Assembly (NCBI GenBank): GCA_027490155.1
Contig: JAIXYP010000037.1
Span: 62,001-126,000, forward strand
DNA length: 64,000 nt
From: Cytophagaceae bacterium
GTDB lineage: Bacteria; Bacteroidota; Bacteroidia; Cytophagales; Flexibacteraceae
Direction: 5' to 3'
Below, in pieces: positions 787-31,553 of this stretch (its first letter is position 1; each line of letters starts with the position of its first letter). Under the pieces are notes generated by a model. That model ran no database searches. It was not told the DNA's origin and worked only from the letters and a program-made list of their open reading frames with translations. The translations under genes were made by a program, and so were the position numbers.

Positions 787-2100
787 ATGAGTAGCCAACT
801 AAAAGTCGCTGATAGCACCCACGACCCCAATGTATATGCCGAGCTCATCACGATTGGGGATGAGATATTGTTCGGTCAGATTGTCAACACCAATGCCCAG
901 TGGATGGGCGTGGAGCTGAGCAACGTCGGGATTCGTGTTAGGAGGCATACCTCCGTAGGTGATAAGGAATCAGAGATCATTGCTGCCTTGACCGAGGCTG
1001 CGCAACGTGCCCATATTGTGCTTATCACTGGTGGGCTAGGACCTACTAAGGATGACATTACAAAGTACACCCTTGCCGCATGGTTTGATAGCCCAATGGC
1101 TGAAAACCCAGATGCCCTCGCGCATCTAGAGGCCTTACTCGCTAGGCGGGGCCGCACCCTTAATGACCTGAATAGGCAACAGGCCAACCAACCCACCAAG
1201 GCAACCTATATACATAATGCCATCGGTACGGCACCTGGGATGTGGTTTGACCTGCCCAAAGGGGATAAAGCCGCCCACGATATGGTGTTTGTCTCGATGC
1301 CTGGCGTGCCAGCGGAGATGAAAAAGATGATGCGGGACATCATTATACCAAAGCTGGTTGCACGATTTGATCCACCTATCATCATCCATAAAATTATCAG
1401 GACGATCGGGATGGCAGAATCCAACCTTGCCGAGCTGATCGAAAGTTGGGAGAACGCCCTGCCTGCCAATGTGTCTTTGGCCTATTTACCAAGTTTCGGA
1501 CAGGTCAAACTGCGTCTTACCGGCACCGGTACCAATGCTACTGAACTCTTGGCAATCCTTAACGAGCAAGCCGAATTGGTCTTACCCTTGATTAGGGATT
1601 ATGTCTATGGATTCGATCAGGACGAACTCGAGAAAGTAATCGGCCGTCTGTTGCAAGAGCGCAATGCCACGCTTGCTACCGCCGAAAGTTTCACTGGTGG
1701 ATCTATTTCACAGCTGATCACCGCAATTCCAGGCAGTAGCGGCTACTTCCTAGGTGGGGTAGTGGCCTATGATAATGAGGTCAAGATCAATACCCTGGGG
1801 GTGGACCGTCAGCTAATTATTAATCATGGTGCTGTTTCTCCGGAGGTTGCAGAGGCAATGGCTGTCGGGGTCCAGCGCGCTACTGGGGCTACTTATGCCA
1901 TCTCTACTACTGGTATTGCTGGCCCTGGTGGAGGTACAGAGGCCAAACCTGTTGGGTTGGTGTATTCGGCAGTAGCTTATCCTGGTGGTGTCTTTAGTGT
2001 CAAGCAACAGCTGCTGGTTGATCGTCACCTCAATATCCAGATGGGTAGCCTTTGGGCCCTGAACCTATTGCGCAAACACCTGCGCGGTATTATTGACTGA
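787..2100 (+). CDS. cinA: CinA family nicotinamide-nucleotide amidohydrolase
   Basis: Two-domain CinA protein of 437 residues. The N-terminal molybdopterin-binding-like domain begins at LITIGDEILFGQIVNTNAQ (residue ~16) and carries GGLGPTKDD (~82-90). The C-terminal amidase domain begins near residue 297 with TAESFTGGSISQLI and ends with the GIAGPGGG loop. The family hydrolyses nicotinamide mononucleotide to the acid in pyridine-nucleotide recycling, and the N-terminal domain acts as an ADP-ribose pyrophosphatase in some members. The ATG at 787 gives the usual family length. The frame stays open back to a TTG at 700, but that extension has no conserved sequence and includes a run of nine C (750-758). 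Confidence 0.9.
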   Translation: MSSQLKVADSTHDPNVYAELITIGDEILFGQIVNTNAQWMGVELSNVGIRVRRHTSVGDKESEIIAALTEAAQRAHIVLITGGLGPTKDDITKYTLAAWFDSPMAENPDALAHLEALLARRGRTLNDLNRQQANQPTKATYIHNAIGTAPGMWFDLPKGDKAAHDMVFVSMPGVPAEMKKMMRDIIIPKLVARFDPPIIIHKIIRTIGMAESNLAELIESWENALPANVSLAYLPSFGQVKLRLTGTGTNATELLAILNEQAELVLPLIRDYVYGFDQDELEKVIGRLLQERNATLATAESFTGGSISQLITAIPGSSGYFLGGVVAYDNEVKINTLGVDRQLIINHGAVSPEVAEAMAVGVQRATGATYAISTTGIAGPGGGTEAKPVGLVYSAVAYPGGVFSVKQQLLVDRHLNIQMGSLWALNLLRKHLRGIID

Positions 2101-2230
2101 TGCGCAAGACTAGCGTCGCAAACAGCATTGGTTTGGTGTTGCCAGACCAAGTTTGGCAATTGTGGCCTTAACTTGCAGCCCAGTGGCTTAGTGATTAGGT
2201 CATACTTTTACCAAAAAAAAACATCGTGTT

Positions 2231-2578
2231 ATGAATCTAGCCTTGTTATTACAGGCATCAGGTGGGTCAACTGGCATCATCAGCCAAGTCGGGATGATCG
2301 GACTTATCTTCGTGATCTTCTATTTTTTTATGATCCGTCCGCAACAGAAAAAGCAAAAGGACATCAAGACCTATCTTGAAACAATCAAAAAGGGATCAAC
2401 CGTAGTAACCATTGGTGGGATGCATGGCAAAATTGTCGAGCTTACAGACCTTACGATGGTCCTAGAGGTTGAAAAAGGCCAACGTCTTTTGTTCGACCGT
2501 AGTGCCATCAGCATGGAAAGCACCAAACGTGCTTACGGTAAAGATGTCAAGGAGGATAAAGAAGAAGTTAAGAAATAA
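2231..2578 (+). CDS. yajC: Preprotein translocase subunit YajC
   Basis: A 115-residue protein with one N-terminal membrane segment (GMIGLIFVIFYFFMI) followed by the family hallmark RPQQKKQKD and a small soluble domain containing the conserved KGSTVVTIGGMHGKI stretch. YajC associates with SecDF-YidC at the Sec translocon in the inner membrane; its role is accessory. The C-terminal tail is lysine- and glutamate-rich. The start is the ATG at 2231, preceded by an A-rich run (CCAAAAAAAAAC) and no Shine-Dalgarno sequence, as is usual in Bacteroidota. It lies 130 bases after cinA and ends at a strong hairpin shared with the convergent lipoprotein gene. Confidence 0.93.
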   Translation: MNLALLLQASGGSTGIISQVGMIGLIFVIFYFFMIRPQQKKQKDIKTYLETIKKGSTVVTIGGMHGKIVELTDLTMVLEVEKGQRLLFDRSAISMESTKRAYGKDVKEDKEEVKK

Positions 2579-2650
2579 TCTAATGAGCTTGATCTCTGAG
2601 CTCAACCGCGTCTTCAAAACATCTGAGGCCTAGAGATGGGCCATAACATG

Positions 2651-2690
2651 AAAGGGGAACGCTGTCTACGGACAGCGTTCCCCTTTTGTA
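2651..2690. terminator. Bidirectional intrinsic terminator between yajC and lipoprotein gene
   Basis: A perfect 16-bp inverted repeat (2651-2666 with 2671-2686) with a TACG tetraloop. The arms begin with AAA and end with TTT, so each strand has a T-rich end. It lies between the convergent yajC (+) and lipoprotein (-) genes and can stop transcription from both sides. Confidence 0.88.
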
Positions 2691-2733
2691 TTGTTTTTGA
2701 GCTGATTGGTAGGTCCTGTTCAGATGGGTTGAC

Positions 2734-4188
2734 CTAGCGACCACCACCGCCACCGCCAATGTTAGGTGTGGCGCCACCTACCGAGCCTCCGCCACTGCTT
2801 TGGCTTCCGCTATATCCGCCTCGGCTTCCGCCACCATCATTGCTGCTGTTGAAGTTGCCGAAGTTGCCATTGCTACGATTATCGTTGCGGTTAGGACTAG
2901 TTGGAGCTGTATAATATCCATTGTCACGTGTGGCAGAGCTTGGGGTGTAAGCTGGGAAAGCGACATTATTGCCATTTCCGATCATGCTGCTGCTGGGGCG
3001 GACATAATAACTTGCATTGCTTGTTTCTGGGCTAACGGGGACGACAAGGCCACCATCCTGCACGACGTTGAGGGTTGGTCGGTTAATGGCCCCAGGGTTA
3101 AGGTCGATCACTTGGGCAGCTGTTGCTTGGCGGGATAGGGCTGTGCCACTATTAACATTGTTGCCAGGTGAGCCTGCCCCTGGGTTTACGATCGTGCCAC
3201 GACTGCCAGGGTTTGATCCGTTGGGGTTTGTGGTCAGGCCAGAACCAACTCCATTGCCGTTGGTGTAAGTGACATTTTGGTTTTTGCCTGGGTTAATGAT
3301 GCCATCACCTGGCCTATTTGATGGGCCTTTGAAAGTGTTTCCACTGGTTCCGTTATTGTTATTCGATCCTGTTACTACTGTGACCAAGCCATTGTTAGGG
3401 CGTGAATTATGGTTGTTCCAGCCGCTGCCATATCCGTAAGGATTGTATCCATATGGGTTAAATCCATAGCCGTAGGCAAATGGGTCATAATAACCATAAG
3501 GATTAGCAAAACCACCAGCATATCCATAGCTCATTCCCCAGCCTGTCAAAGAGCTGTAGCCTACCGACATCATCCAGCCAGGGTTGTATCCGTATCCGAA
3601 GCCAGCTCCGTATCCCCAACGCCCTCCGTTGTAGAAAGATGTTGAGCCATAAGGGTCATAAAACCCGTTTTGATAGGGGCCACAGCTGAAACAGTTGCCG
3701 AAGCCAGATCCATAACCCATGCCACTATAAAAGCCAGAATAGTAAGGATTGTTGCCAAAAGCTAGATTGTATCCCACTTGTGGTCCTCCAAAGCCTCCAC
3801 TGTTGCCAAAGAAATTGTTACTACCAATACCATAAATTTGACTGTTTTTGTAGGTGTTATAGCTACCAGGTGTACTGTTATTATAGCCTGGTTTGTAGTA
3901 CTCTTGCCCTGAGTCTGGTTCTGTTGTTGGGATTTCAGCCATTGGGCGACCTCCTTGCCAAAGATTACTGGTCCCGCTGCCATTGGCTTTGGTATTTGCT
4001 GTGGGCACAATCGCAACTCCGTTCGGGCTGATCTTGTCCGACTTACTAGCCAATCGATCATCCTGAGTGAAGTAGGTGTCATCCCTATCTTGATAAGCCA
4101 AGTGGGTGCTGCTGCTACATGCGCTCATCATCACTGCCAAGGCACCTAAGGCGGCAGTCGTAAGCATTGATCCGGCGGATGTTTTCAT
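2734..4188 (-). CDS. Low-complexity Gly/Asn/Tyr-rich lipoprotein
   Basis: A 484-residue protein. The N-terminus is a lipoprotein signal: Met-Lys start, hydrophobic stretch ALGALAVM, then MSAC with the lipidation Cys at residue 24. Residues ~110-270 are Gly/Tyr/Phe-rich with repeated NPYGY-type units; ~275-350 are Asn/Gly/Pro-rich; the end is Ser/Gly-rich and closes with a run of six Gly before the last Arg. Such composition suggests an extended, probably surface-exposed, adhesive or structural lipoprotein, but no family or function can be named. A near-ideal Bacteroidota promoter lies upstream (4334-4364), leaving a leader of about 140 bases. Overlapping open frames on the other strand are composition artefacts. 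Confidence 0.8.
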   Translation of the reverse strand: MKTSAGSMLTTAALGALAVMMSACSSSTHLAYQDRDDTYFTQDDRLASKSDKISPNGVAIVPTANTKANGSGTSNLWQGGRPMAEIPTTEPDSGQEYYKPGYNNSTPGSYNTYKNSQIYGIGSNNFFGNSGGFGGPQVGYNLAFGNNPYYSGFYSGMGYGSGFGNCFSCGPYQNGFYDPYGSTSFYNGGRWGYGAGFGYGYNPGWMMSVGYSSLTGWGMSYGYAGGFANPYGYYDPFAYGYGFNPYGYNPYGYGSGWNNHNSRPNNGLVTVVTGSNNNNGTSGNTFKGPSNRPGDGIINPGKNQNVTYTNGNGVGSGLTTNPNGSNPGSRGTIVNPGAGSPGNNVNSGTALSRQATAAQVIDLNPGAINRPTLNVVQDGGLVVPVSPETSNASYYVRPSSSMIGNGNNVAFPAYTPSSATRDNGYYTAPTSPNRNDNRSNGNFGNFNSSNDGGGSRGGYSGSQSSGGGSVGGATPNIGGGGGGR

Positions 4189-13975: not shown

Positions 13976-14182
13976 CCAAAAAAATATGGGTAATATGGTG
14001 TTTGTTAATGCCGCTTGGAATGAGATAAAAAAACTTGATTTGATGCTGTTGTAGCGGTTTTTTATTTGGTATTGATTGCATAACAGCAAACGAAAAGTGT
14101 TAGTCGGTCCCTAATGCGGATATAAAGTTTTGTTTTCTCGGTATTAAGTGCCAAATTTAGAGGTCCATTCTTGATTGCTGAT

Positions 14183-15841
14183 ATGCAAGTCTCACCTGCC
14201 ACCTTAGCAAATAGTGCCATCTTATGGCCCGCAGCTCAAATGCGAGGCTCTGTTGGTATTTTGTTGATGTGGCCGATGGCTTTATGGTGTGTCTTGCTTG
14301 GCGGAGGTAATCATATTTGTCTGGCACAAGCTGTAGGGCAGGCCAATCACCTGTCTGCCACTGGCCCTACTTTGGTCAATGACATAGACCTACCATTGCT
14401 TGACTTTGGGTCCAGCCTAAGTGGGCGTCCGTCCGTGATCAACAAATATGTTTTCCGACCAGGTGCCATCGCTACGGATTGGTTTTTTCAATCCTCTATC
14501 TTTTACAGGTACGATCTAGGTCTTCGTCCTGTCACGATCACCGAAATCAACCGACGAGGCGATACGCTCAGGCGTAAAGCTTATGACTATCACCCGCTTA
14601 GCAAGGTAATGCTGGTCGAAAGGGTCCAGGTCTACTCCAATAGGTTGGGATGGCAGGATAGTGTCGAGATTGCGTATTTTTATGACAACGTGCTTTCTAA
14701 TGCGCTGAGAGTCAAACAGATCAGCAATTTGAAAGGACCTGCAAACACTTTGCCAACTCAGACCTTGTTTGCTTATCGTCCTGATGGTAAACCCCAATAC
14801 ATTCGTCAACGTCGTGAAGTAAACCGACGCTGGATTGAACTGTCCGCAGAATACTTCTCCTACAATGCGGCTGGTCTAGAGGTCTCTAGGTCTTTATACG
14901 AGTTTGATGGCCCAGATTCTGTTTTAACCCTCAGGACCTATAAGACCTTTGACTATGTCAGACCACTGACACAGGATAGCATTTTCCGCGCAATTAACTA
15001 TTGGCAGTATGCCAACAAACAAGTACAGCTGCTCCGGAGCGATACCTTAATTTTGTCGAACCCAAGAGGTACAGATCCTCCTAATGGATGGACAGAGACC
15101 TATTTCAATGCGGCTAGTCTTGTTACACGGAGGGTTCGGTATGCCAATGTGACGTTCAGCAATTATGTCCGGAATAATATCCCTGGTAGTACACTCTTGA
15201 CTCAGACCGAACAGACTTGGAATGGCAATAGGTTTGTAGACAATAGCCGCACTAATTATCAGAGCTTTGCCTCAAACGCTGTCAGCATCGTGAGGGAGGT
15301 TGCCGCAAACAACGTTTTTACACCTGCCGAACGCTACCAAGCACCATTTGATACGTTCCGGAACTCACTCGGTACCCTCTACGAACGCTGGAATGCCTCG
15401 CAACGTGCTTGGGTCTTTAATCCTAGGCAGACTAGTACAGTCATACGCCACAGATATGATGTAAACTCGTCTCAGCTTGTTGAGTCAGTTATCTCTGTGA
15501 CAGATACATCCGCCAATTTGCATCAAGCCTTTTTGCTAGAGTACCTCAACTATGTGGTCTCGACGCCCAAGCAGGCGCAACAAGTTGTCAAACTATTGGC
15601 TTATCCAAATCCTGCTTCAGACCAGATCAAGGTTGATTTGCCATCAATGTTGGCTGGAGAGCCTGTCCGGATATTGGTCCAGAATGCGCTAGGCCAATTG
15701 GTCCTGACCACAGAGGACAATGGATCAAGTCCTGTAATCAACGTATCCAGCCTCCCAGACGGGATCTACATCCTTAATGTAGTTCGGAATCAAGGTAATC
15801 AAGATATCTTAGGTACAGCCAAGTTCGTCAAGCGGCCATAA
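14183..15841 (+). CDS. T9SS type A sorting domain-containing secreted protein
   Basis: A 552-residue exported protein. A hydrophobic segment (VGILLMWPMALWCVLLGGG) followed by CLAQA serves as the signal peptide; it is internal if translation starts at the ATG 14183, and the ATG at 14240 would make it a standard N-terminal signal. The body has repeats of Tyr/Arg-rich beta segments (for example LFAYRPDGKPQYIRQRR and FSYNAAGLEVSRSLYEF) like those in YD/RHS-type or toxin-delivery-like sheets, but this is weak. The last ~80 residues (YPNPASDQIKVDLP ... VRILVQNALGQLV ... LPDGIYILNV) are a T9SS type A sorting domain, so the protein is exported through the type IX system and probably surface-anchored or released. 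Substrate and role unknown. Confidence 0.82.
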   Translation: MQVSPATLANSAILWPAAQMRGSVGILLMWPMALWCVLLGGGNHICLAQAVGQANHLSATGPTLVNDIDLPLLDFGSSLSGRPSVINKYVFRPGAIATDWFFQSSIFYRYDLGLRPVTITEINRRGDTLRRKAYDYHPLSKVMLVERVQVYSNRLGWQDSVEIAYFYDNVLSNALRVKQISNLKGPANTLPTQTLFAYRPDGKPQYIRQRREVNRRWIELSAEYFSYNAAGLEVSRSLYEFDGPDSVLTLRTYKTFDYVRPLTQDSIFRAINYWQYANKQVQLLRSDTLILSNPRGTDPPNGWTETYFNAASLVTRRVRYANVTFSNYVRNNIPGSTLLTQTEQTWNGNRFVDNSRTNYQSFASNAVSIVREVAANNVFTPAERYQAPFDTFRNSLGTLYERWNASQRAWVFNPRQTSTVIRHRYDVNSSQLVESVISVTDTSANLHQAFLLEYLNYVVSTPKQAQQVVKLLAYPNPASDQIKVDLPSMLAGEPVRILVQNALGQLVLTTEDNGSSPVINVSSLPDGIYILNVVRNQGNQDILGTAKFVKRP

Positions 15842-15976: not shown

Positions 15977-16813
15977 CTACTTTTCGATTTCGTTGGCCAA
16001 GACCTCAAAGGTTATGTTATCACCTATTATAGCCACCGCCATGACTTTGGGTTCTCGACTTGATGGTTGTTTGCTTAAGTTGATAATCTTATTGTCAGTG
16101 CTCAATGCTAGTTTTTCATAAATGGGTATGTACCGTATCCGAAACCAATAAGGATGTGCTTCGTCCTCGCCGTAGTTATGTTTGACGACAAAAACTTCGC
16201 CAAGTAAAGCACGCTGGCTATATTCCTTCATTCGCTTATGTCGTTCGGCCATCATCGGTACCTCTAGGTAATTGGTGCCGATATCCATCTTGACGTTTAG
16301 AGAGCCTACCATGGCCACACGGAAGGCCTCATTGCAAAATAGTATCTTGAATTCGGGATCAACTACGAATACGATGGAATCAGGATTGGCTGTTGCTCCC
16401 ACCGCAATCTGCCACAAATTGGCATGATCGAGGGCTTGCTTAGCGATTTTGTTGGCTTGGTCTGTCAGTTTACGCAGGTAGTTGATCGTGATCGGTAACC
16501 TGCCTAGCTCCAGACATTTTTGGTCCAAAGCATCGGTCCAGACAAGGTCCGTATTGCGGATTTGGTCACTATTTGGTAGTAGCACTAGGTGCTGTCCCTG
16601 ATCGGAAAGTTCGGCCCAGAGTGGCCATTGTTGATGGTCTTCGGCCACAAAGAACCCCAAAACTGAGCTATATTTGGTGATTACCCCTAAGACCTTTGTC
16701 TCCGTGTTGACGACAAACAGGTTGTATTTGAGCCCAGTGTTAATGAGCTCACGTCTAAAATGCTGTGCCTGATCCTTGCTGGAAGTTACAAGCACGATCT
16801 GAAAGACAGTCAT
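15977..16813 (-). CDS. PAS-domain protein with a receiver-like N-terminus
   Basis: A 278-residue soluble protein. Residues ~1-115 have alternating strands and helices like a response-regulator receiver (FQIVLVTSSKD, then YNLFVVNT, then VLGFFVAEDH, then QHLVLLPNS), but the acidic cluster after the first strand is missing and no clear phospho-acceptor Asp is seen at the end of strand 3, so it would be a pseudo-receiver. Residues ~150-275 form a PAS-like domain (IVFVVDPEFKILFCNEAF ... YWFRIRYIPIYE). There is no output domain. It lies 144 bases downstream of the histidine kinase gene on the same strand and probably works with it. Receiver assignment is tentative. Confidence 0.65.
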   Translation of the reverse strand: MTVFQIVLVTSSKDQAQHFRRELINTGLKYNLFVVNTETKVLGVITKYSSVLGFFVAEDHQQWPLWAELSDQGQHLVLLPNSDQIRNTDLVWTDALDQKCLELGRLPITINYLRKLTDQANKIAKQALDHANLWQIAVGATANPDSIVFVVDPEFKILFCNEAFRVAMVGSLNVKMDIGTNYLEVPMMAERHKRMKEYSQRALLGEVFVVKHNYGEDEAHPYWFRIRYIPIYEKLALSTDNKIINLSKQPSSREPKVMAVAIIGDNITFEVLANEIEK

Positions 16814-16957: not shown

Positions 16958-18682
16958 CTAGGCTCGTGCCCTGAAAGCCTTGCTATCCAAGGTTCGGGGC
17001 GCAGGAGGGCCAACCTGACACGGGATAAAGGCAGTAGCAATGGTGCCGGTATGGACATTGGATGTGAGCTGGATACTCCCACCTATATTGCCAAGTATCT
17101 TCCTGACGATTGAAAGGCCTACACCACTTCCCTTTGTCCGGTTGTTTCCAGTATAGAACATATCAAACACATGCTCTAGGTGCTCGGGCGGAATGCCAGG
17201 TCCATTGTCCTGAACCGTAAGCGAAATACCATCTGCCTGCGCAATGAGGCCAATTTTGAGCAGTGGTTTATCATTATGGTTGAACCCAATGGCATTGGAA
17301 AGCAGGTTATTCAGGATTTGACTTATCGGCCATTTGTTTTGGAATATGGTTGGCCAAATTTGAGGAAGCTCTACCCTGACATTGTGGCCCACTTGTAGAT
17401 ACTCTAAGCAGTTAACCACCAACTGTTCGGTATCGATCCAAGTTAGATCATTGTTGTTTTTGGTTGACTGGGCATAGACAATCAGGCCATCGAGCATGGT
17501 GTCAACCCGTTTGGCAATGCCACGTACTATGTCGAGCTGTGCCTTGCTGTGTGGACTGACAAGGGGGCCCAATTCTTCTTCTATTTCGTCGATGATACGA
17601 TCAATGCTGCTGATTGGTGCTTTAACATCTTGTGCTATAACCTGGGTCAGGTTGTTAATTTCATCAGACGCTTGCTTAATCATACTTGCTTCTGCATCCG
17701 TGAGGCGTTGTTGGTCTAGGTTGGTCACACCAGCATAGAGTACTCCAACAACCGATATCGCTGCACCATTGCTATCACGTTTGACTTTTGCTTTGATGTG
17801 TAACGAGCACAGGCTGGCATCGTCAGGATGGGTCACCAAGAAGTGATCCTCGAAATACTCGCCTTCGTTAATGGCATTATATAGTTTGCCCATCACCTGC
17901 TTCCGGTAGTCACTATGGATGTAGCGCTCAAGCAGGGCCATGGTCGGGTTGGCCACTTGCGGTATGCCTAGCAAGTCGAACATGGCAGGCGTCCAGTTGG
18001 TGATGCCAGCCTCTAGGTTGATATAAAAGGCTCCTAGTTCACCCACTTGGCACGCCTCTTCCAAAAAGGTTGGTTGAGGTGGGGTATAGGTTTGGGACGA
18101 GTTCGAGTCGGACGTGTTGGCACGATAGGTTGTGAAGGAGGTGCTACCTTGGTAGAGGTTGGCTCCTCTCGGGATTTCTTGTTGCTGATCTAGTCCAAAG
18201 GGCTGAAATAACCCCTGTTTGTTGTGGCCAGAAACAGCATCTGGACTTGATGTACGTCCTTGTGCTAGGTTTCCAAAATGCTCTCTGATTGAGATTAGGA
18301 CTTTGTTTTGGTTTGACCCAAGCCAATTGACCTTCATGTCTGCCTGTGGGAATGGCGACGGCTCAAGCACGATAAACTTGCCGGGCTGGTTGAAGCCTTG
18401 ACGTTGGGCCTCGTTGAAAAGCTCGCGTAGATTTAGCTGTGGCAACCATTTAAGTGCTGCAAAATTATTGGCTAATACTTTTCCGTCTGACGAGACAGCT
18501 GCCAGAGCGTCGGTCGTAGCCTCAAACAAAAGGGATATTAGGTCTTGTTGTATCATAGGTTTGGCAAACTCTGGATAATCCTCAATTATTTGACGCAAGT
18601 CTGGCTTTACCTTTGCAAGATAAGTACAAAGGCCGAAACATGAGGGCAGGATTGTCCTTGTTAATGCCTCTTTATTGTCCAC
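16958..18682 (-). CDS. PAS-domain histidine kinase lacking the phospho-acceptor His
   Basis: A 574-residue soluble protein with no membrane segments. Domains: a PAS-like region (~45-90, AVSSDGKVLANN), a longer PAS/PAC pair (~205-325, GAFYINLEAGITNWTPAMFD), a dimerisation helix (~335-400) and a HATPase domain (~430-560) with N-box NNLLSNAIGFNHND, G1 VQDNGPGIPPE, F-box FDMFYTGNN and G2 GSGVGLSIV. The ATP site looks complete, but the H-box reads IAQDVKAPI: the His of the usual SHDL(K/R)APL motif is Gln351 (CAA, 17630-17632). Standard autophosphorylation should therefore be impossible at this site. It is divergent from the HtrA protease gene and upstream of a PAS/pseudo-receiver gene. Confidence 0.85.
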   Translation of the reverse strand: MDNKEALTRTILPSCFGLCTYLAKVKPDLRQIIEDYPEFAKPMIQQDLISLLFEATTDALAAVSSDGKVLANNFAALKWLPQLNLRELFNEAQRQGFNQPGKFIVLEPSPFPQADMKVNWLGSNQNKVLISIREHFGNLAQGRTSSPDAVSGHNKQGLFQPFGLDQQQEIPRGANLYQGSTSFTTYRANTSDSNSSQTYTPPQPTFLEEACQVGELGAFYINLEAGITNWTPAMFDLLGIPQVANPTMALLERYIHSDYRKQVMGKLYNAINEGEYFEDHFLVTHPDDASLCSLHIKAKVKRDSNGAAISVVGVLYAGVTNLDQQRLTDAEASMIKQASDEINNLTQVIAQDVKAPISSIDRIIDEIEEELGPLVSPHSKAQLDIVRGIAKRVDTMLDGLIVYAQSTKNNNDLTWIDTEQLVVNCLEYLQVGHNVRVELPQIWPTIFQNKWPISQILNNLLSNAIGFNHNDKPLLKIGLIAQADGISLTVQDNGPGIPPEHLEHVFDMFYTGNNRTKGSGVGLSIVRKILGNIGGSIQLTSNVHTGTIATAFIPCQVGPPAPRTLDSKAFRARA

Positions 18683-18776: not shown

Positions 18777-20276
18777 ATGAAACAGTTTTTTCTTTTTTTG
18801 TTAGCAGCATTTGTGGGTGCAGCTATAGCCCTTGGTCTTGAGCGTCTAAGTAACTCAGATGGTGGTAATTTGTCAGATAATAGCGGTGGCATCGAAGGAA
18901 AACAACGTCGCTGGCTAGGTGCCAAGGCAGGATCGTCCGACACAACCAACGTACCGCTGGGACTCAATTTCGTAGGTGCAGCTCGATTGGCTAGCCCTGC
19001 AGTTGTTTCTATCCAGAGCCGATCTTCCAGAACCAGTAATCAAAGGAGTGTCAATCCGTTTGAGGAGTTTTTTGGCAATCCAGATGGTGGGAGCGGTGAC
19101 GAACAATTTGGTTTGCCTTCTGAAAGTAGTGGATCAGGTGTCATCTTAACAGCTGATGGCTACATCGTGACCAATAACCATGTAGTAGATGGAGCTACGG
19201 AGGTAAAGGTTGTGCTGGATGATAAGCGTAGTTTTGTGGCCAAGATCATCGGTATCGACCCCACAACAGACCTAGCATTGGTCAAGATAGATGCCCAAGG
19301 TTTGCCTTTTGTAAGCTATGGTAACAGCGATGCGCTGGAAATCGGTGAGTGGGTCTTGGCCCTTGGCAATCCTTATGACTTAACCCAAACAGTCACAGCT
19401 GGCATCGTAAGCGCCAAAGCGCGGAACATCAACATTCTCCGGACCAAGAGCAATATGCAAATTGAGAGCTTTATCCAGACAGATGCGGCTGTTAACCCAG
19501 GTAATAGTGGCGGTGCCCTCGTGAACCTAAGGGGAGAGCTGGTAGGCATAAATACTGCGATTGCTAGTCAGACAGGCAGCTATACTGGCTATTCGTTTGC
19601 TGTCCCAGTCTCGATCGTTAAAAAAGTGATCGATGACTTGCTTCAGTTTGGCGATGTCCAACGGGCTGTCCTTGGGGTTGAGGTCCGGGATATATCAGCT
19701 GAGTTTGCCAAAGAAAAGGACCTGCCAGATACTAAAGGAGTGTATATCAGTGGTGTATTTGCGCGCAGTGGCGCAGCAGATGCAAAGCTGGTGGCGGGGG
19801 ATGTGATCTACAAAATCAATGGACAAGAAGTCAATAGCTCCGCCCAGATGATCGAGCTCGTTGCACGCAACCGTCCTGGCGATAAACTCAAGATCACTTA
19901 CGGCCACAGTGGCTCGATCAGAACCACCGAAGTTAGGCTCAAGTCTAGATCGGGCGAGGAAAAATTGACTTCTGCCAAGCCAAACAACTATAAAAGCCAG
20001 GTTCTTGGTGCCGAACTCCGGACCCTGACAGCCCAGGAGCTCAAAACTGCCAACCTAACTTCTGGTATCAAAGTAATTAAGGTATTACCTAGTGGTGTTT
20101 TGGGGGCTGCAGGCATTAAGGATGGGTTTATCATCTCAGCACTTGATAAAAAAGCAGTGACTGACCCTGCTCAATTTGAGCGCATATTGGGCGAAACTAA
20201 CGGTGGTGCTTTGCTAGAAGGCCAATATCCAAACGGACGCAAGTCCTACTATGCTATTGCCCCTAATGCTAACTAA
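18777..20276 (+). CDS. Do/HtrA-family periplasmic serine endoprotease
   Basis: A 499-residue protease. The N-terminus (MKQFFLFLLAAFVGAAIALG) is a signal peptide or membrane anchor. The trypsin-like domain has the full triad: H135 in VTNNHVVDGA, D165 in TTDLALVKI, and S244 in NPGNSGGAL. Two PDZ domains follow (~300-390, VLGVEVRDISAEF; ~410-495, VLGAELRTLTAQ). It degrades or refolds damaged envelope proteins and is usually induced by envelope stress. The two PDZ layout fits DegP/DegQ (Do) rather than DegS. The start ATG at 18777 is 94 bases from the divergent kinase start. Confidence 0.93.
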   Translation: MKQFFLFLLAAFVGAAIALGLERLSNSDGGNLSDNSGGIEGKQRRWLGAKAGSSDTTNVPLGLNFVGAARLASPAVVSIQSRSSRTSNQRSVNPFEEFFGNPDGGSGDEQFGLPSESSGSGVILTADGYIVTNNHVVDGATEVKVVLDDKRSFVAKIIGIDPTTDLALVKIDAQGLPFVSYGNSDALEIGEWVLALGNPYDLTQTVTAGIVSAKARNINILRTKSNMQIESFIQTDAAVNPGNSGGALVNLRGELVGINTAIASQTGSYTGYSFAVPVSIVKKVIDDLLQFGDVQRAVLGVEVRDISAEFAKEKDLPDTKGVYISGVFARSGAADAKLVAGDVIYKINGQEVNSSAQMIELVARNRPGDKLKITYGHSGSIRTTEVRLKSRSGEEKLTSAKPNNYKSQVLGAELRTLTAQELKTANLTSGIKVIKVLPSGVLGAAGIKDGFIISALDKKAVTDPAQFERILGETNGGALLEGQYPNGRKSYYAIAPNAN

Positions 20277-24150: not shown

Positions 24151-24314
24151 TGCCATTTTAGAATGGCTGCCGTCAACCTAAAAGTACTTCAACGTCTGGC
24201 TTAGGCCAGCAAATTATGGCATGGCATAGTTGGTTTATGCCATTTTTGCGTTCTTTACTACTCAGACACTGCATGGGCACATTGCCAAGGCTCAATCTAT
24301 TAGCGACATTAGCT

Positions 24315-27300
24315 ATGCTCCACTACTTTGCCAAAACACTCCGCTCGATTCTGCTTTGTTGCTTGACCTTTGGGTTGACGCAAATGGTCCTTGCCCAGTG
24401 CCCAGTGCCCAGTTTCCAGATCCCGTCTAACATCTGCGCTGGCCAGCCTATAAACCTGTCAAATACCAGTACAGGTGGTGCAAGCTATAATTGGAGTTTT
24501 TGCAACTCTGCCTTAAGGACAACACCTCTAGCACGCGATATGGCAGGTATCCCGGTGATAACTTTACCGGGGATCAATACTGCCATCCGGGTTTCGAAGA
24601 CAGTGTTGGACGGCTCCAACTATTTTTCTTACGTTCTTGGTTCTGATAGCCGTTTATATCGGGTGATCCATGGACAAGATGTCAGGAATGTCATTAGAGT
24701 GGAGTCATTAGGTAATCCCAGAAACCTAATCAATGCAGCTAGTGCTCTCGATTTGGTCCAGGATGCAGGGATATGGTATGTTTTGGTTGCCAACCGGGTC
24801 GATTCAAAGATCATTCGGTACAACCTAGGCAATGACCTTGGGGTGACCGCTGCAGGTATCACGGCGGATAGCATTATGGTGGCCCCCAGTAATATCAATG
24901 GAGCGGGAGGGTTTCAGGTTATTAAGGAAGGCGGGCAGTACTTTGGTTTCCTAGGCTCTAGTGGGCTGAACCAAGTGATGGTCATTCAGTTTGGCACAAG
25001 TATCAATACCAACTCGGCCACAACCTACATCTTTAACGGTCCCAGCGGTGCCAATATCGGAGATTTTTCGGTCATCAAGGATTGTAACAACTGGTTTATC
25101 CTAGCAGCAAATAACCCTGGATTTAGTAACCGTACTATTCTCAGGGGAAATATGGGTGGTAACTTGTCAAACATCGTTCCGGTCTGGACTGTTGCATACT
25201 CCGTTGGTCAGGCCGAGTCAATTTCGGGGGTTACTTCCGTTCGAGAGTCTGGTCAGATTCAGGCCTTTTTGACACTTGGTGGTGGGGGTGTTCTCAATCT
25301 AAACTTTAGAGGCAATTTGCTCAATACGCCTTTGGTGCGTACCATAGGGGTTTATCCTGGGTTGCTTAACGGACGCACCCCGACATTGCTCAAGTTAGGT
25401 ACTTCGGAATGGATCCTGCTTTGTAACTCTTCGTCCGTCAACTCTACCCGATTCGGACGTATAATTTTCAAAGACTCTTGTTACGCTTCGGTTAGCGGTA
25501 GTTCACTCTTTAATCCTGCCCCCTTTACATTTACCAAGCCTGGCAAATACTACATCTCGCTGGACGTAACCAATGCTGCAGGTCAGGTAAGGTCAACAAT
25601 TGACTCTGTAACCATCAGGCCAGCCTACACCCCTGACTTCATAACTACTAGGCCATGTGGGGCCCTGCAAGTAGGTTTTGACGAGGCGTCGCAGATCTGT
25701 ACCAATTCGCCAATCATTTCTTGGGCTTGGGACTTCGGTGATGCCATTGGTAATTCAAACATCAAGAATCCTACCTACAGATATACTGCTCCTGGCTTCT
25801 ATAACGTCACACTAACACTGACCAATTCCCTCGGGATGACAGAGTCCAGGACCAAAAGAATCTTGGTCGAGGATGGTACAAATACTGCGGCTTTTGTGGC
25901 ACCTACCAATAGTTGCTCGGGCGCGCCAATTAGTTTTCAGGATGCATCTGTGGCTGGCCTAGACTCGATTAAACAATGGAGCTGGAACTTTGGAGATGGT
26001 GGTACAAGTAATCTCCAGAACCCAACTCATACCTACACCTCTGGTGGAACATATACGGTTTCGTTAGCCGTAACCTCCCTAAGCGGATGCACTAAACAAA
26101 CCCAGCAACAGATCACGATTAGGCCGGGCATTGCCTTGGCCTTTGCAATTGACCAACAGTGCCAGTTTAAGGCCGTTTCGTTTAGCAACGCAAGTGTACC
26201 TGCCAGTGGCGTGACTGTCAGTAGCTATACTTGGAATTTTGGAGATGGAAGCCCACTCCAGTCTGGCACCAATGTTTCGCATATCTACCTACGAGCCGAC
26301 ACCTTCCTGGTGACCCTCACGGCGGTCGGGAGCAACGGTTGCACCTCAATCTTGCAGAAAGGTATCCGGATTTTCCCTAAGCCTGCAGCCAAGTTTAGTA
26401 TCCCTAACTTTAATTTCCTGGGTGATGTCACGACCTTTCGTGACTCTAGCACGGCACCCTTCCAGACCATTAGTAGCTATGCCTGGAACTTTGGCGAGCC
26501 ATCCTCAGGTTCTCAGAATACTTCGATAGCGATCAATCCTTCGCATGTGTTTCAGACACCCGGTATTTTTGAGGTCACACTGGTCATAACTACTAACCGT
26601 GGCTGTGCAGACACCTCTGTCCGGATGGTTGAGGTCAAGGAGCCATGCCCGCAAGTCAGCTATAACATCACCTCCTCCTCAGCCCCAATCAATACAGTTA
26701 TTCCTCAGGTCTTGTCGGCACCTTCGGCCACTTTCTTCGAGCAAGACCAATGCGCTGGTGATCTAGGAAAAACCCCTTTGGCGGTATCGCAGTCTATTAT
26801 CAATTCTGTGATTGACAATACGTCTAGGATAGCTATTGCCCGAGATGGTAATAAGTGGTATGGTATCGGTGTTAACCAAGCGGATGTCACGGTCAACAAT
26901 AGCCAAGTGGCTCACCTTTATGAGTTTGACACCTCCTTGTTCAATGCACCAACCGTCAGTAATCAAGGAATATTAGGAGGACAGCTATCTCGCCCTGTGG
27001 ACATGGCCCTTCAAAAGGCCAATGGTATTTGGTATGCTTGGGCGTTGAATGCAAACGGCACGTTAGTTAAGATCAACCTTGGGGCTCAGCTCAATCCCTT
27101 GCTGTCAAGTGGCAGCCAGCTCATTACCCTGCCGACACCGATCAGGACTCCCATCAAAATGCGTTTGGTTCAGGACAAGGACTCAACATTCTTGTTCGCG
27201 CTTAGTAACGACGGCACCAATGCCAACCTGACCCGTATCGCCTTTGGGCCGGATCTCACTACGCCAATCGTCACTGTACTTAATAATCCTCAAGTCCTCC

Positions 27301-30300
27301 AGAGTGCATCTGGGCTTCGTGCCATTGCTTTTGAGCGAGATTGCAATCGATGGTATGCCTTGGTAGCAGGACCAGCACAGCTCTTTAGGCTTAACTATGG
27401 CTATTCGCTAAATAGTACGCCAATTGTCGATAACATTTCGAGCCAGATTACATCCGCCACACTGCCTGCCTCGTTTATCAGCAATGCTTCCGAGTTCGTT
27501 ATCAGACGCGAAGGTGGCAGGATCTATACCTTCCTGATTAATACTTCTGGCAATATCCTGCGCTGGGAGTGGCCTAACGGACTTGCTGGCACTGCTGCCA
27601 ATGTGACCAACGTCGGTAACCTCACGATCATGAACAATACGCGTTGGTTCACGCTAGTAAACCAGCAAAGCGATTGGTTTGGTTTCGCTTCCAATTTTGT
27701 CAACAGCACCGTCTATCGGCTCAAGTTTCCGAACAATTGCTCGGCCAACAACCCCTTCATTACCGACACGGTCCTGAAACAAGTACCGATGGCCTATAGC
27801 CGAGCAGGTAACTACCTAAGTACCGTTACCATTGCGGACTCTAATGGCTTTGTGACTACTGTTGTGGATTCCGTGTTGGTTACGTCCGCCGCTCTGACGG
27901 ATTCAGTTGCCTGTATCACCAACACCTTTGTTGTCACCAATGCTGGCAAACAGACCTGCCGCGGGAACCTAGTAACGCTTTCTGCCAACTTTGCGTCAAG
28001 CCAGCGGAATTACCAGATTGATGCTTGTACTGGCGAGCTAGCCGCACCTGCCTCGACTGTTACCCCGGTAGTATTCCAAACCATTCCGGGCACTGCCTCC
28101 CCACGATCTTTTGATCAGATTTTTGACGGCACCAATTGGGTCTCACTTATGGGGTATAATGGCAACATTAGTCGCCTGGTCAGTAATGCCAACCTAGAGG
28201 CAACTACCGTTACAGACGCCGTTGGTGCTGCTTTGGCAGGTCAGACGGTGACAAGCCTGAGGCTATTTAGAAAAAACGGGAACTTTTATGCCATAGGTAC
28301 CTCGAATGTGATTGGCGCAGCCCAGCCATTTTCGGAGCTATTTGTCCTTGATTTTGGACCTACAATCAACAATCCGGGGGTTCTGCCTCTTTATCGTCGG
28401 TACAGTGGTGCAGGTAATATGCTTGGCGCCCGTCAGGTGGAGGTTGTCGAGGACAAGGGCGATATTTTTGCTATAGTTACGTGTGCTAACAACAACCGCA
28501 TGATAATTTATGAATTCGGTAACTCATTGGCCAACTTTCCTAACCAACGCGTGCTTGACGTTACAGGTCTTTCGGGTAGCTCTGGCTTATCGATGATTAA
28601 GGAGTGTGGTACTTGGTATGCTCTCGTGACCCAAGGCCAGCCGTCACAGGCTGTTTTGGCGAGCTTTTCGAAGGGTATTCGATTTGCCCCGACTTTCCGC
28701 ACCTTTGTTCAGGCCCCAACAGGAACTGTGCAGTATTTCTTGGCCGCAAACGAACTAGTCTACGACGCTGGTACTTATTATGCTTTCGTTCTCGGTGCGC
28801 GGTCAAGTGGCAATACGGTAATGCTACGTTATAACATGGGTTCCTCACTACGTAATCCGCGGATTGCCCCACCAGTGGATCTTGGTAGCTTCTCGAGCCT
28901 GACCACTGGCCTAACAGCCATGAGTATGTATAAGGCCCAAAACTCAGTCTGGAACGCGATTGTGGTTGCTGATGTTGCTTCAACCAACACGCTCGTGACC
29001 CGTCTTGCTTTTGGCCAACCTTGCCCAGTTCTTAATCCACTATTCAGCAACATCCGTAACCCTGCCTTGACCTATGCCGGACAAGGTGGATATAGCATAG
29101 ACCTTGTAGCTACTGATACCATCACGGGGTTAGTTAGCCGATATACCGACTCTGTTACCATCCGTAACCCTGTCAATGCCGATTTCCAGATCACAGGGCA
29201 GCAATGCCAAGGTGGTCAAGTTAGTTTCATCGACCAGACTACCCGCAACGTACCGACCTCCCAGCTGGACTATAAATGGAACTTTGGCACCACAACTGAC
29301 CCTACTGATATCCAGAGTACGCTCCAGAATCCAACATTTAGCTATGCCACACCAGGTGTTTATACCATCAGGCTGCGGGTGAGCGAAAGTAGCGGATGCG
29401 TGGATGAAGCAGTGAGGCAAGTTCGTATTAAAGCTCCGCCTGTACCGACGATGGCCCCGCCTGTACCTGCCTGTTCGTATGACTCGATCACACTAATTGA
29501 TAATTCGGTCATTGTGGCTGATACTATCGTGGGCAAGATCTGGACAGTTACAGATGGCAATGGGCTTGTCGTAGCGACAAGCACAAGGACCGAAGGGCGT
29601 TTTGCCCTAGCAACTGCTGGTAACTATACAGCTACACTTAGGTTGCGATCAATCAGTGGTTGCGAAGCAATTAGTGCTGCTGTACCCTTGCTTGTCAATC
29701 GTCAAGGCACGGGTTTTACCTTGAAGGTGGATACTGGAGGGTTTTGTTTCGGGGACACAACCCGGATCAGGGTCATCCCTAACCCTGGAGACCCAGCCTT
29801 TTTGTTCTTGACCTGGCAGGCTAGTAACGGTATGATTTTTACCACACCAGGCAGCAAGCTAGATACTTCTTTTGCGTTCCAGAGTGCAGGTACTTACACA
29901 GTGACTGTAACTGGCGAAAACCTGCAACGTTGCAACAGTACCATTACCCGTACGATCCCGATTTACATTAAACCCAATGCCGTGCTGGACTATACCCAGC
30001 CATGCGATGGAAGCCCAGTTACCTTTACGACCCCAACCCTGAGTGGAGACGGTACCATTGTTCGTCGTCGTTGGTTCTTTGGGGATGGAACTGTGGATAC
30101 TGTCGGTAACAACCCTGCCCCTGTCCATACCTATCCACGTATCGGAACATACAATGTTTCCGTCAGGCTGGCAGCTAACACAGGTTGTGAGCGCGAGGTT
30201 ACTACAATTATCAATATAGGAGCCGCACCAATCGCCAACTTTAACTACCTCCCAGCATGTGTGGGTGACTTTACAACATTCCAGAACCAGAGTGTGGCCA

Positions 30301-31553
30301 ATGGGCTGCCAGGAGGCATCGCCAACTATCTTTGGGATTTTGGTGACGGTGGCACCAGCCTGCAACCTGATCCTACGCACCAATACCTAACTGGTGGCCG
30401 ATTTAACGTTACGCTAACTGTGGTAGCTGGCAACTGCCCAAATACCATTCAGCTTCCTGTCGATGTGCCATCCTTGCCATCGGTAACCATTGGCCTAACG
30501 GAAGGTTGTACAGGCCAGCCATACATCCTGAAAGACCTGACTCCCTACACTGGCAATCCTGCCCGGCCAACAAGGCGCCTCTGGACAGTTGCGGGCCGTA
30601 CCTATACGGATTCGATCATAAGCTTCTTGCCTGATCCAGGCCTCACCAATCTGGACGTAACTCTTGAGGTAACCAGCCAGCAAGGATGCCAGAGCAGCAA
30701 CACCATCAATACGATCGTGCCACAAAACAGTCAGGCTAACTTCCGCTTCCTTGATTCCGTTTTCACGACTGGCCAGCCGTTGAGCGTTCGATTCCAGAAC
30801 CAAAGCACCAATGCCCAGTCGTTCCGTTGGGACTTTGGCGATGGAGACACTAGTACGGCTTTTGGCCCTACCCATACCTATACTGCACCAGGTGTCTATC
30901 GTGTTTGTCTTCGGGCTTATCGCAACTCCCAATGCAGTACCGAGGTTTGCCGTACGTTAAACGTTATTCCTAACCGCAGGCCTGATCTTGCAGTCCTGTC
31001 AGTCCTGACTACTGAGCAAAATGATCAACTTAGTATCACTGCCGAAGTCAAGAACCTAGGTAATGTCGAGCTCAAACAGCTGGATCTCCAGGCAAATTTG
31101 GAAGGGACTTATACCATTCAAGAGCGTTGGTCAGGATCTATCCTGCCAGGTGCCACAGCTCAGGTGGCTTTGCGTGCTGTGGCAGTTCCGTCACTTTCGA
31201 TCAAATCCAAAATAGTATGTGTGACGGCACTACCAGTGGCAGAGCTGGATGCCAACCTTGCCGATAACGACTTCTGTACAGGCACAACCTCGCAGTTCCA
31301 TATCCTGAGTGTTCGTCCCAACCCAAACACCGGTTTGCCAGTGAACTTGCGCTATTCTGTGCCGCGGTCTGGCAAACTTAGCATTCAGCTAATTGATGTG
31401 CTAGGGCGAATGGCAGGGACCGTGACTGACCAAACCACAGCAGAGGGAGTATACGATCTCCAGATTGATCCTCAGGCATACACTAAGGGTGTGTATTACA
31501 TCCGTTGCAAGTTTGATGACCAAGTTCAACAGCTAAGGCTTGTTTTACAATAA
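24315..31553 (+). CDS. Giant PKD-repeat protein with T9SS type A sorting domain
   Basis: A 2,412-residue exported protein. Signal peptide: MLHYFAKTLRSILLCCLTFG ... VLAQ (the ATG at 24315 makes this a normal signal; the frame is open back to 24216). There are about ten to eleven PKD-type units, many with a W-x-F-G-D-G core, grouped at ~435-775 and ~1620-2220. Three ~330-400-residue blocks (~65-390, ~780-1190, ~1215-1620) contain repeated G-x-W-Y-x-hydrophobic motifs (WYVLVAN, WYALVAG, WYGIGVN, WYALVTQ) as in beta-propellers. Residues ~2222-2332 resemble a CARDB adhesion module, and the last ~80 (RPNPNTGLPVNLRYSVPRS ... GVYYIRCKF) are the T9SS type A sorting signal. Likely a surface adhesin or filament; ligand unknown. 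Confidence 0.85.
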   Translation: MLHYFAKTLRSILLCCLTFGLTQMVLAQCPVPSFQIPSNICAGQPINLSNTSTGGASYNWSFCNSALRTTPLARDMAGIPVITLPGINTAIRVSKTVLDGSNYFSYVLGSDSRLYRVIHGQDVRNVIRVESLGNPRNLINAASALDLVQDAGIWYVLVANRVDSKIIRYNLGNDLGVTAAGITADSIMVAPSNINGAGGFQVIKEGGQYFGFLGSSGLNQVMVIQFGTSINTNSATTYIFNGPSGANIGDFSVIKDCNNWFILAANNPGFSNRTILRGNMGGNLSNIVPVWTVAYSVGQAESISGVTSVRESGQIQAFLTLGGGGVLNLNFRGNLLNTPLVRTIGVYPGLLNGRTPTLLKLGTSEWILLCNSSSVNSTRFGRIIFKDSCYASVSGSSLFNPAPFTFTKPGKYYISLDVTNAAGQVRSTIDSVTIRPAYTPDFITTRPCGALQVGFDEASQICTNSPIISWAWDFGDAIGNSNIKNPTYRYTAPGFYNVTLTLTNSLGMTESRTKRILVEDGTNTAAFVAPTNSCSGAPISFQDASVAGLDSIKQWSWNFGDGGTSNLQNPTHTYTSGGTYTVSLAVTSLSGCTKQTQQQITIRPGIALAFAIDQQCQFKAVSFSNASVPASGVTVSSYTWNFGDGSPLQSGTNVSHIYLRADTFLVTLTAVGSNGCTSILQKGIRIFPKPAAKFSIPNFNFLGDVTTFRDSSTAPFQTISSYAWNFGEPSSGSQNTSIAINPSHVFQTPGIFEVTLVITTNRGCADTSVRMVEVKEPCPQVSYNITSSSAPINTVIPQVLSAPSATFFEQDQCAGDLGKTPLAVSQSIINSVIDNTSRIAIARDGNKWYGIGVNQADVTVNNSQVAHLYEFDTSLFNAPTVSNQGILGGQLSRPVDMALQKANGIWYAWALNANGTLVKINLGAQLNPLLSSGSQLITLPTPIRTPIKMRLVQDKDSTFLFALSNDGTNANLTRIAFGPDLTTPIVTVLNNPQVLQSASGLRAIAFERDCNRWYALVAGPAQLFRLNYGYSLNSTPIVDNISSQITSATLPASFISNASEFVIRREGGRIYTFLINTSGNILRWEWPNGLAGTAANVTNVGNLTIMNNTRWFTLVNQQSDWFGFASNFVNSTVYRLKFPNNCSANNPFITDTVLKQVPMAYSRAGNYLSTVTIADSNGFVTTVVDSVLVTSAALTDSVACITNTFVVTNAGKQTCRGNLVTLSANFASSQRNYQIDACTGELAAPASTVTPVVFQTIPGTASPRSFDQIFDGTNWVSLMGYNGNISRLVSNANLEATTVTDAVGAALAGQTVTSLRLFRKNGNFYAIGTSNVIGAAQPFSELFVLDFGPTINNPGVLPLYRRYSGAGNMLGARQVEVVEDKGDIFAIVTCANNNRMIIYEFGNSLANFPNQRVLDVTGLSGSSGLSMIKECGTWYALVTQGQPSQAVLASFSKGIRFAPTFRTFVQAPTGTVQYFLAANELVYDAGTYYAFVLGARSSGNTVMLRYNMGSSLRNPRIAPPVDLGSFSSLTTGLTAMSMYKAQNSVWNAIVVADVASTNTLVTRLAFGQPCPVLNPLFSNIRNPALTYAGQGGYSIDLVATDTITGLVSRYTDSVTIRNPVNADFQITGQQCQGGQVSFIDQTTRNVPTSQLDYKWNFGTTTDPTDIQSTLQNPTFSYATPGVYTIRLRVSESSGCVDEAVRQVRIKAPPVPTMAPPVPACSYDSITLIDNSVIVADTIVGKIWTVTDGNGLVVATSTRTEGRFALATAGNYTATLRLRSISGCEAISAAVPLLVNRQGTGFTLKVDTGGFCFGDTTRIRVIPNPGDPAFLFLTWQASNGMIFTTPGSKLDTSFAFQSAGTYTVTVTGENLQRCNSTITRTIPIYIKPNAVLDYTQPCDGSPVTFTTPTLSGDGTIVRRRWFFGDGTVDTVGNNPAPVHTYPRIGTYNVSVRLAANTGCEREVTTIINIGAAPIANFNYLPACVGDFTTFQNQSVANGLPGGIANYLWDFGDGGTSLQPDPTHQYLTGGRFNVTLTVVAGNCPNTIQLPVDVPSLPSVTIGLTEGCTGQPYILKDLTPYTGNPARPTRRLWTVAGRTYTDSIISFLPDPGLTNLDVTLEVTSQQGCQSSNTINTIVPQNSQANFRFLDSVFTTGQPLSVRFQNQSTNAQSFRWDFGDGDTSTAFGPTHTYTAPGVYRVCLRAYRNSQCSTEVCRTLNVIPNRRPDLAVLSVLTTEQNDQLSITAEVKNLGNVELKQLDLQANLEGTYTIQERWSGSILPGATAQVALRAVAVPSLSIKSKIVCVTALPVAELDANLADNDFCTGTTSQFHILSVRPNPNTGLPVNLRYSVPRSGKLSIQLIDVLGRMAGTVTDQTTAEGVYDLQIDPQAYTKGVYYIRCKFDDQVQQLRLVLQ
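24393..24413 (+). repeat. Three tandem copies of GCCCAGT at the signal-peptide junction
   Basis: The 7-bp unit GCCCAGT occurs three times without gaps inside the coding sequence, just at the predicted signal-peptide cleavage site of the giant T9SS protein. Because 7 is not a multiple of 3, gain or loss of one unit would shift the reading frame. Confidence 0.75.

Follow-up and report, generated by a model that had tools for sequence, protein, structure and literature searches.

The window analysed here (the whole stretch of 64,000 nucleotides from a Cytophagaceae bacterium) encodes on its minus strand a 574-residue protein with the build of a histidine kinase, in which the phospho-acceptor His is replaced by Gln (Gln351) and whose gene is kept by purifying selection and is not decaying. 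The product is probably a working, non-phosphorylating signalling protein and, more specifically, we favour, with reasonable rather than full confidence, the reading that it is a pseudo-histidine kinase that signals by partner binding, in the manner of DivL. The kind is already known: this is a conserved pseudo-histidine kinase, so far in one genus. The features on which the argument rests are the following:

16958..18682, minus strand: His-less histidine-kinase-like gene (574 aa; orthologue at locus L031, 6001-7722, 96% identical)
17738..18034, minus strand: PAS domain, residues 217-315 (Pfam PAS_3 E 8.6e-6, PAS E 6.3e-5; model pLDDT 71-93)
17561..17722, minus strand: DHp helix 1, residues 321-374, which holds the H-box position (from the model, blocks at pLDDT 64-83)
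17468..17554, minus strand: DHp helix 2, residues 377-405 (from the model)
17018..17449, minus strand: HATPase (CA) domain, residues about 412-555 (PF02518, E 2.2e-23 over 453-555)
17630..17632, minus strand: codon CAA, Gln351 at the phospho-acceptor His position (from alignments to relatives)
17285..17287, minus strand: Gly466 at the N-box Lys/Arg position (alignment, 133 relatives)
17150..17152, minus strand: Thr511 at the usual F-box Arg position (alignment, 133 relatives)
15977..16813, minus strand: adjacent receiver-like/PAS gene (278 aa; N-terminus, about residues 1-80, receiver-like; PAS at residues about 144-232)

The frame opens with a GTG placed directly behind an in-frame TAG in both species that carry the gene, and M43 (18554-18556) offers an alternative start. 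Residues 1-204 (18071-18682, minus strand) match no Pfam family and are modelled with a pLDDT mostly below 50.

The first-pass annotation of this DNA had described an open frame, an H-box reading IAQDVKAPI, a Gln encoded by CAA where related kinases have His, and intact N, G1, F and G2 boxes for ATP binding; the first three stand, and the last holds only in part. In a joint alignment of 133 relatives, position 351 is His in all 124 rows that cover it, the other 9 being gapped there. The same holds for three further sets, which overlap with one another and with the former: 39 of 39 covering rows, besides the window gene and its orthologue, in a set of 47 loci (where three rows are these two genes, the orthologue being present twice, and five do not cover the position), 78 of 78 covering rows from 80 further loci (one with no match and one not covering), and 20 of 20 kinase frames from 19 same-genome paralogue stretches, 18 of them scored by motif, the remaining two (L076 and L088) from the alignment alone. 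The joint alignment omits L031 and L033-L042 (distant, short, or the orthologue itself) and identical sequences, and also L001, L002 and L048-L071. An alignment slip is ruled out, since D352, K354, A355 and P356 pin the register, and so is a sequencing or assembly error, because the orthologue from a second species has the same CAA codon amid 99 other base differences. Could a different His take the role of acceptor? The two DHp helices contain just one more, H378, placed 27 residues further on at the turn of the hairpin, and it was rejected as a candidate. A Gln in this place is rare yet not unheard of, given that the His is absent from 0.9% of the HisKA domains surveyed across bacteria (722 of 76,471, according to excerpts of PMC12632262).

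The gene is narrowly distributed. A search of 59 genomes, the window's own included, gave a full-length match only in the two genomes of the genus (G000 and G001); the best E-value is known for every genome, and individual matches at the weak end only among those listed. The orthologue in the genus's other genome is 96% identical, with 99 differences over 1725 bases, and is also found in a public record of a Cytophagaceae MAG (CANHWS010000036.1), the genes at L002 and L031 being identical, while a scan of contigs returned the same orthologue (L031) and 11 weaker relatives. Close orthologues with His, whose existence would have made the Gln a one-off change in the eyes of the first-pass annotation, were looked for and did not occur, there being just one orthologue among the 59 genomes. 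No orthologue of the kinase-like gene or of the adjacent PAS gene was found outside the genus among these 59 genomes, and the former is absent from the nine other family genomes examined. The fixation of Q351 is therefore established within a single genus and two genomes, which alone carry the Gln protein. As for the other flank, an HtrA/DegP-like protease gene (18777-20276) lies divergently, 94 bases away; its product scores 414.4 bits against TIGR02037, just below the cut-off of 416.2, and relatives of it were found in each of the 11 family genomes, counting that of the window. No kinase-like gene was seen beside the HtrA relatives at the 6 loci inspected out of 14 (L050-L055), a weak check that covered about 1.5 kb on each side and was judged by eye on the first 70 residues per frame.

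The comparison of the two species shows what selection has preserved. The whole-gene dN/dS (NG86) between the window gene and its orthologue is 0.091 (0.0195/0.215), and by parts it is about 0.15 for residues 1-204, 0.10 for the PAS region, 0.12 for the DHp region and 0.02 for residues 416-555. Residues 450-555 (106 codons, with about 76 synonymous and 242 nonsynonymous sites) hold 19 synonymous and 0 nonsynonymous differences, for which the chance under a random spread over sites is about 1e-12 (a figure that ignores mutational bias), and residues 316-370, around the Gln, hold 4 synonymous and 0 nonsynonymous ones. In two His-bearing paralogues of the same genomes, the matching CA stretch gave 21 synonymous to 5 nonsynonymous differences and 10 to 2, respectively, so the ATPase domain is constrained no less than in these two His-keeping proteins (few controls as they are). 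The gene as a whole is somewhat less constrained than the controls, since its dN/dS of 0.09 compares with 0.06 and 0.05 for the two paralogues and 0.04 for the HtrA neighbour. It might be argued that this is a kinase on its way to being lost, with Q351 as an early inactivating hit, and the alteration of three active-site positions and the lack of a detectable HisKA domain would fit such a course. However, the frame is open in both species, the dN/dS is 0.09 and the 106 ATPase-domain codons have no amino-acid change against 19 synonymous ones, by which this explanation is largely refuted already and, in our opinion, scarcely credible. The pseudokinase proposed in the first-pass annotation gains support instead, with Q351 in both genus genomes examined and the ATPase domain under strong purifying selection.

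What does the protein look like? An AlphaFold model, obtained from a 31-row alignment, shows a DHp hairpin (helices 321-374 and 377-405) followed by a CA fold. Its mean pLDDT is 65.4, a value that is low because residues 1-204 are poorly predicted, and in ten-residue blocks it is 71-93 for the PAS domain, 64-83 for the DHp helices and 62-95 for the CA domain. Among solved structures the model resembles ZraS (9jfj; Z 22.6, rmsd 2.4 over 225 residues), HK853 (6rgy; Z 20.6, rmsd 5.8 over 204 residues) and DivL (4q20; Z 19.1, rmsd 5.0 over 218 residues), and its CA region resembles BCKDK (1gjv; Z 18.8, rmsd 2.1 over 148 residues), although a fold in common with solved kinases says nothing on function. 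The protein shows a kept fold (in the model), a lost acceptor and a gene under selection, which are traits of a pseudo-histidine kinase. The retained DHp hairpin would also suit an inhibitory or dominant-negative partner, that is, a protein that, like RetS with GacS, enters a mixed dimer with another kinase and blocks it without catalysis; the RetS precedent, in which the phosphorelay residues are dispensable or not fully required (excerpts of PMC4866733), speaks in favour of this option. Nonetheless, the genome holds no close paralogue, and such a role does not account for an ATPase domain so strictly conserved, so we regard it as unlikely.

The ATP site itself tells a mixed story. The core residues N459, N463, D492, G494, G496, F509, G520 and G522 are kept in the joint alignment, in agreement with the intact ATP-binding boxes first described, but this description fails for the N-box Lys/Arg and the F-box Arg, replaced by Gly466 and Thr511. 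Position 466 is Lys or Arg in 118 of the 133 relatives and Gly in none of them (a basic residue is likewise missing in 15), and position 511 is Arg in 99, Thr in 17 and Lys in 6 of the same 133. Both positions, occupied by Lys and Arg in the alignment to 5uht (an entry titled as an HK853 complex), are taken by us to hold the phosphates of ATP; a search with narrow terms over part of the literature returned no paper on the role of this Lys and Arg. Both are non-basic in 3 of the 133 relatives, and since one of these has His at 351 and the other two do not cover it, the double change alone is no proof of inactivity. Two different histidine kinases encoded in tandem in the same genome (L073, 767-1870 and 2001-3299, minus strand) both have the His, and the second of them (2001-3299, of the AHEINNP type) has no basic residue at 466 or 511. 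The H-box flank is altered as well: position 350 is Ala, where 115 of 124 relatives have Ser and 7 have Ala, and position 347 is Gln, where 105 of 121 have Tyr. Furthermore, the Pfam search matched PAS and HATPase_c in the window protein and did not detect HisKA (PF00512), which is unlisted for either Gln orthologue at a limit of E 10 (the HMMER filters dropping most matches above about 0.1), while the profile matches 29 of 31 alignment rows at E 0.001. With positions 466, 511, 350 and 347 altered and PF00512 undetected, Gln351 reads, at the level of sequence, as one among several active-site changes and not as a lone substitution.

These losses bear on two further explanations that would leave catalysis in place. 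His-mutant kinases can phosphorylate the His of a partner in mixed dimers in the laboratory, so that the ATPase domain, with its core residues kept and strongly constrained, might act as a donor for another kinase; that the H1 domains of GacS and RetS pair in mixed dimers, according to excerpts of PMC4866733, adds to the plausibility of this arrangement. But with Gly466 and Thr511 the very residues expected to bind the phosphates of ATP are gone, and no close paralogue is at hand: of the genome's 20 other matches, the one with the best score is 26% identical over residues 285-555. Given both facts, a heterodimer donor seems to us decidedly unlikely. The mitochondrial PDK and BCKDK, for their part, have the same fold and phosphorylate Ser, and the first-pass annotation had mentioned a kinase acting on another residue. 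The fold match of the CA region to BCKDK and the constraint on the CA domain would agree with a kinase for another residue or protein; however, the common GHKL fold is expected of any such kinase, the basic residues of the N-box and the F-box are gone, and no substrate candidate was recognised next to the gene, which makes this possibility less likely than first thought and, by our estimate, improbable.

The gene neighbourhood offers a candidate for the interaction partner of the putative pseudokinase. The 278-aa gene lies downstream on the same strand, after a gap of 144 bases whose length is equal in the sister species, and both genus genomes examined have the pair, which is absent from the other nine genomes of the family. 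Its product is 91% identical in the sister species, its other matches fall within residues 86-257 (mostly in the PAS part), and its dN/dS is about 0.08 for the PAS part and about 0.23 for the N-terminus. The first-pass annotation had seen here a PAS protein with a degenerate receiver; the PAS domain is confirmed, whereas the receiver derives entirely from a low-confidence model, in which the blocks of residues 1-80 have a pLDDT of 47-78 and strands and helices alternate in a receiver-like way. In the layout that we assume for receivers, an Asp ends strand 3 and an acidic pair comes after strand 1; in this model strand 3 does not end in Asp (GFFV, then AED), and strand 1 is not followed by such a pair. 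No receiver profile matched the 278-aa protein, and its 50 listed fold matches read as PAS/LOV proteins or entries holding them. The N-terminus may thus be, as modelled, a receiver that lacks its Asp. That both adjacent genes make up a genus-specific two-component pair, one without His and the other without Asp, in which ligands control direct binding and no phosphate is moved, is an idea that we hold to be unlikely. Elsewhere in the window, the protein encoded at 14171-15841 ends in a sorting tail for type IX secretion (TIGR04183), and a protein of 2445 residues (24216-31553, plus strand) has many PKD-like repeats, as judged by eye.

How might the His-less protein work, then? In the scheme that we propose, a signal sensed by its cytoplasmic PAS domain would be relayed to a DHp hairpin, present as a dimer, and to a domain with the ATPase fold. 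The protein would no longer autophosphorylate, because Gln stands in for the acceptor His and the ATP site has lost its usual Lys/Arg and Arg. An engineered His-to-Gln change in GacS disables autophosphorylation of its H1 domain (excerpts of PMC4866733). The output would be the conformation-dependent binding of a response regulator, of another kinase or of the receiver-like/PAS neighbour, as in DivL, and the adjacent PAS protein is possibly the binding partner. We infer dimerisation, lack of catalysis and signalling by binding, and by analogy the protein most likely signals by binding. Still, a CA domain so strictly conserved could be doing some chemistry even now, and the ATP site need not be dead, if DivL is a guide, since DivL with its His restored regained phosphate when its partner was present (excerpts of PMC4211667).

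A protein like this is a clean case in which to ask what selection preserves in a kinase that is unable to self-phosphorylate at the usual place, and its receiver-like/PAS neighbour is a possible phosphate-free partner. Moreover, counts based on the HisKA profile would probably miss it, because it has drifted beyond detection by Pfam HisKA. Papers on Gln at the acceptor position or on His-less kinases of Bacteroidetes were searched for with narrow terms in part of the literature and none was found, which does not prove their absence.

Among the closest known systems are the HisKA PAS kinases of the SHDLRAP type from the same order. The window protein has their DHp-CA order, preceded in some of them by a PAS domain, and their core residues of the N, G1, F and G2 boxes; unlike them (His in 124 of 124 covering rows), it has Gln, Gly466, Thr511 and no Pfam HisKA match. 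Its neighbour may be compared to the bacterial pseudo-receivers for its order of strands and helices and its lack of the strand-3 Asp (in the low-confidence model), although, unlike them, it has no receiver profile match and its listed fold matches read as PAS/LOV proteins or entries holding them. In ChrS, a frameshift in the CA domain gave rise to a pseudokinase by which heme tolerance was raised (PMC9491836). RetS of Pseudomonas acts via pairing of H1 domains and needs its phosphorelay residues not at all or not in full (PMC4866733), but it is a hybrid kinase that works on GacS, and no equivalent partner was found here. DivL remains the nearest model. As far as the excerpts of PMC4211667 go, it has Tyr for His (Ala in one species), is without kinase or phosphatase activity, binds TNP-ATP weakly and works by sensing a response regulator in its phosphorylated form. 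The window protein differs in having Gln351 (in both genomes) instead of Tyr, a Cytophagaceae host, one detected PAS domain and no known link to DivK or CckA, and its sequence match to DivL (4q20; E 3.4e-6, 43rd of 46 rows) reflects only the similarity of histidine kinases in general. Nevertheless, as in the DivL of Caulobacter and other Alphaproteobacteria, PAS, DHp and CA follow one another, the acceptor His (Tyr550 in DivL) is replaced and the CA fold is kept.
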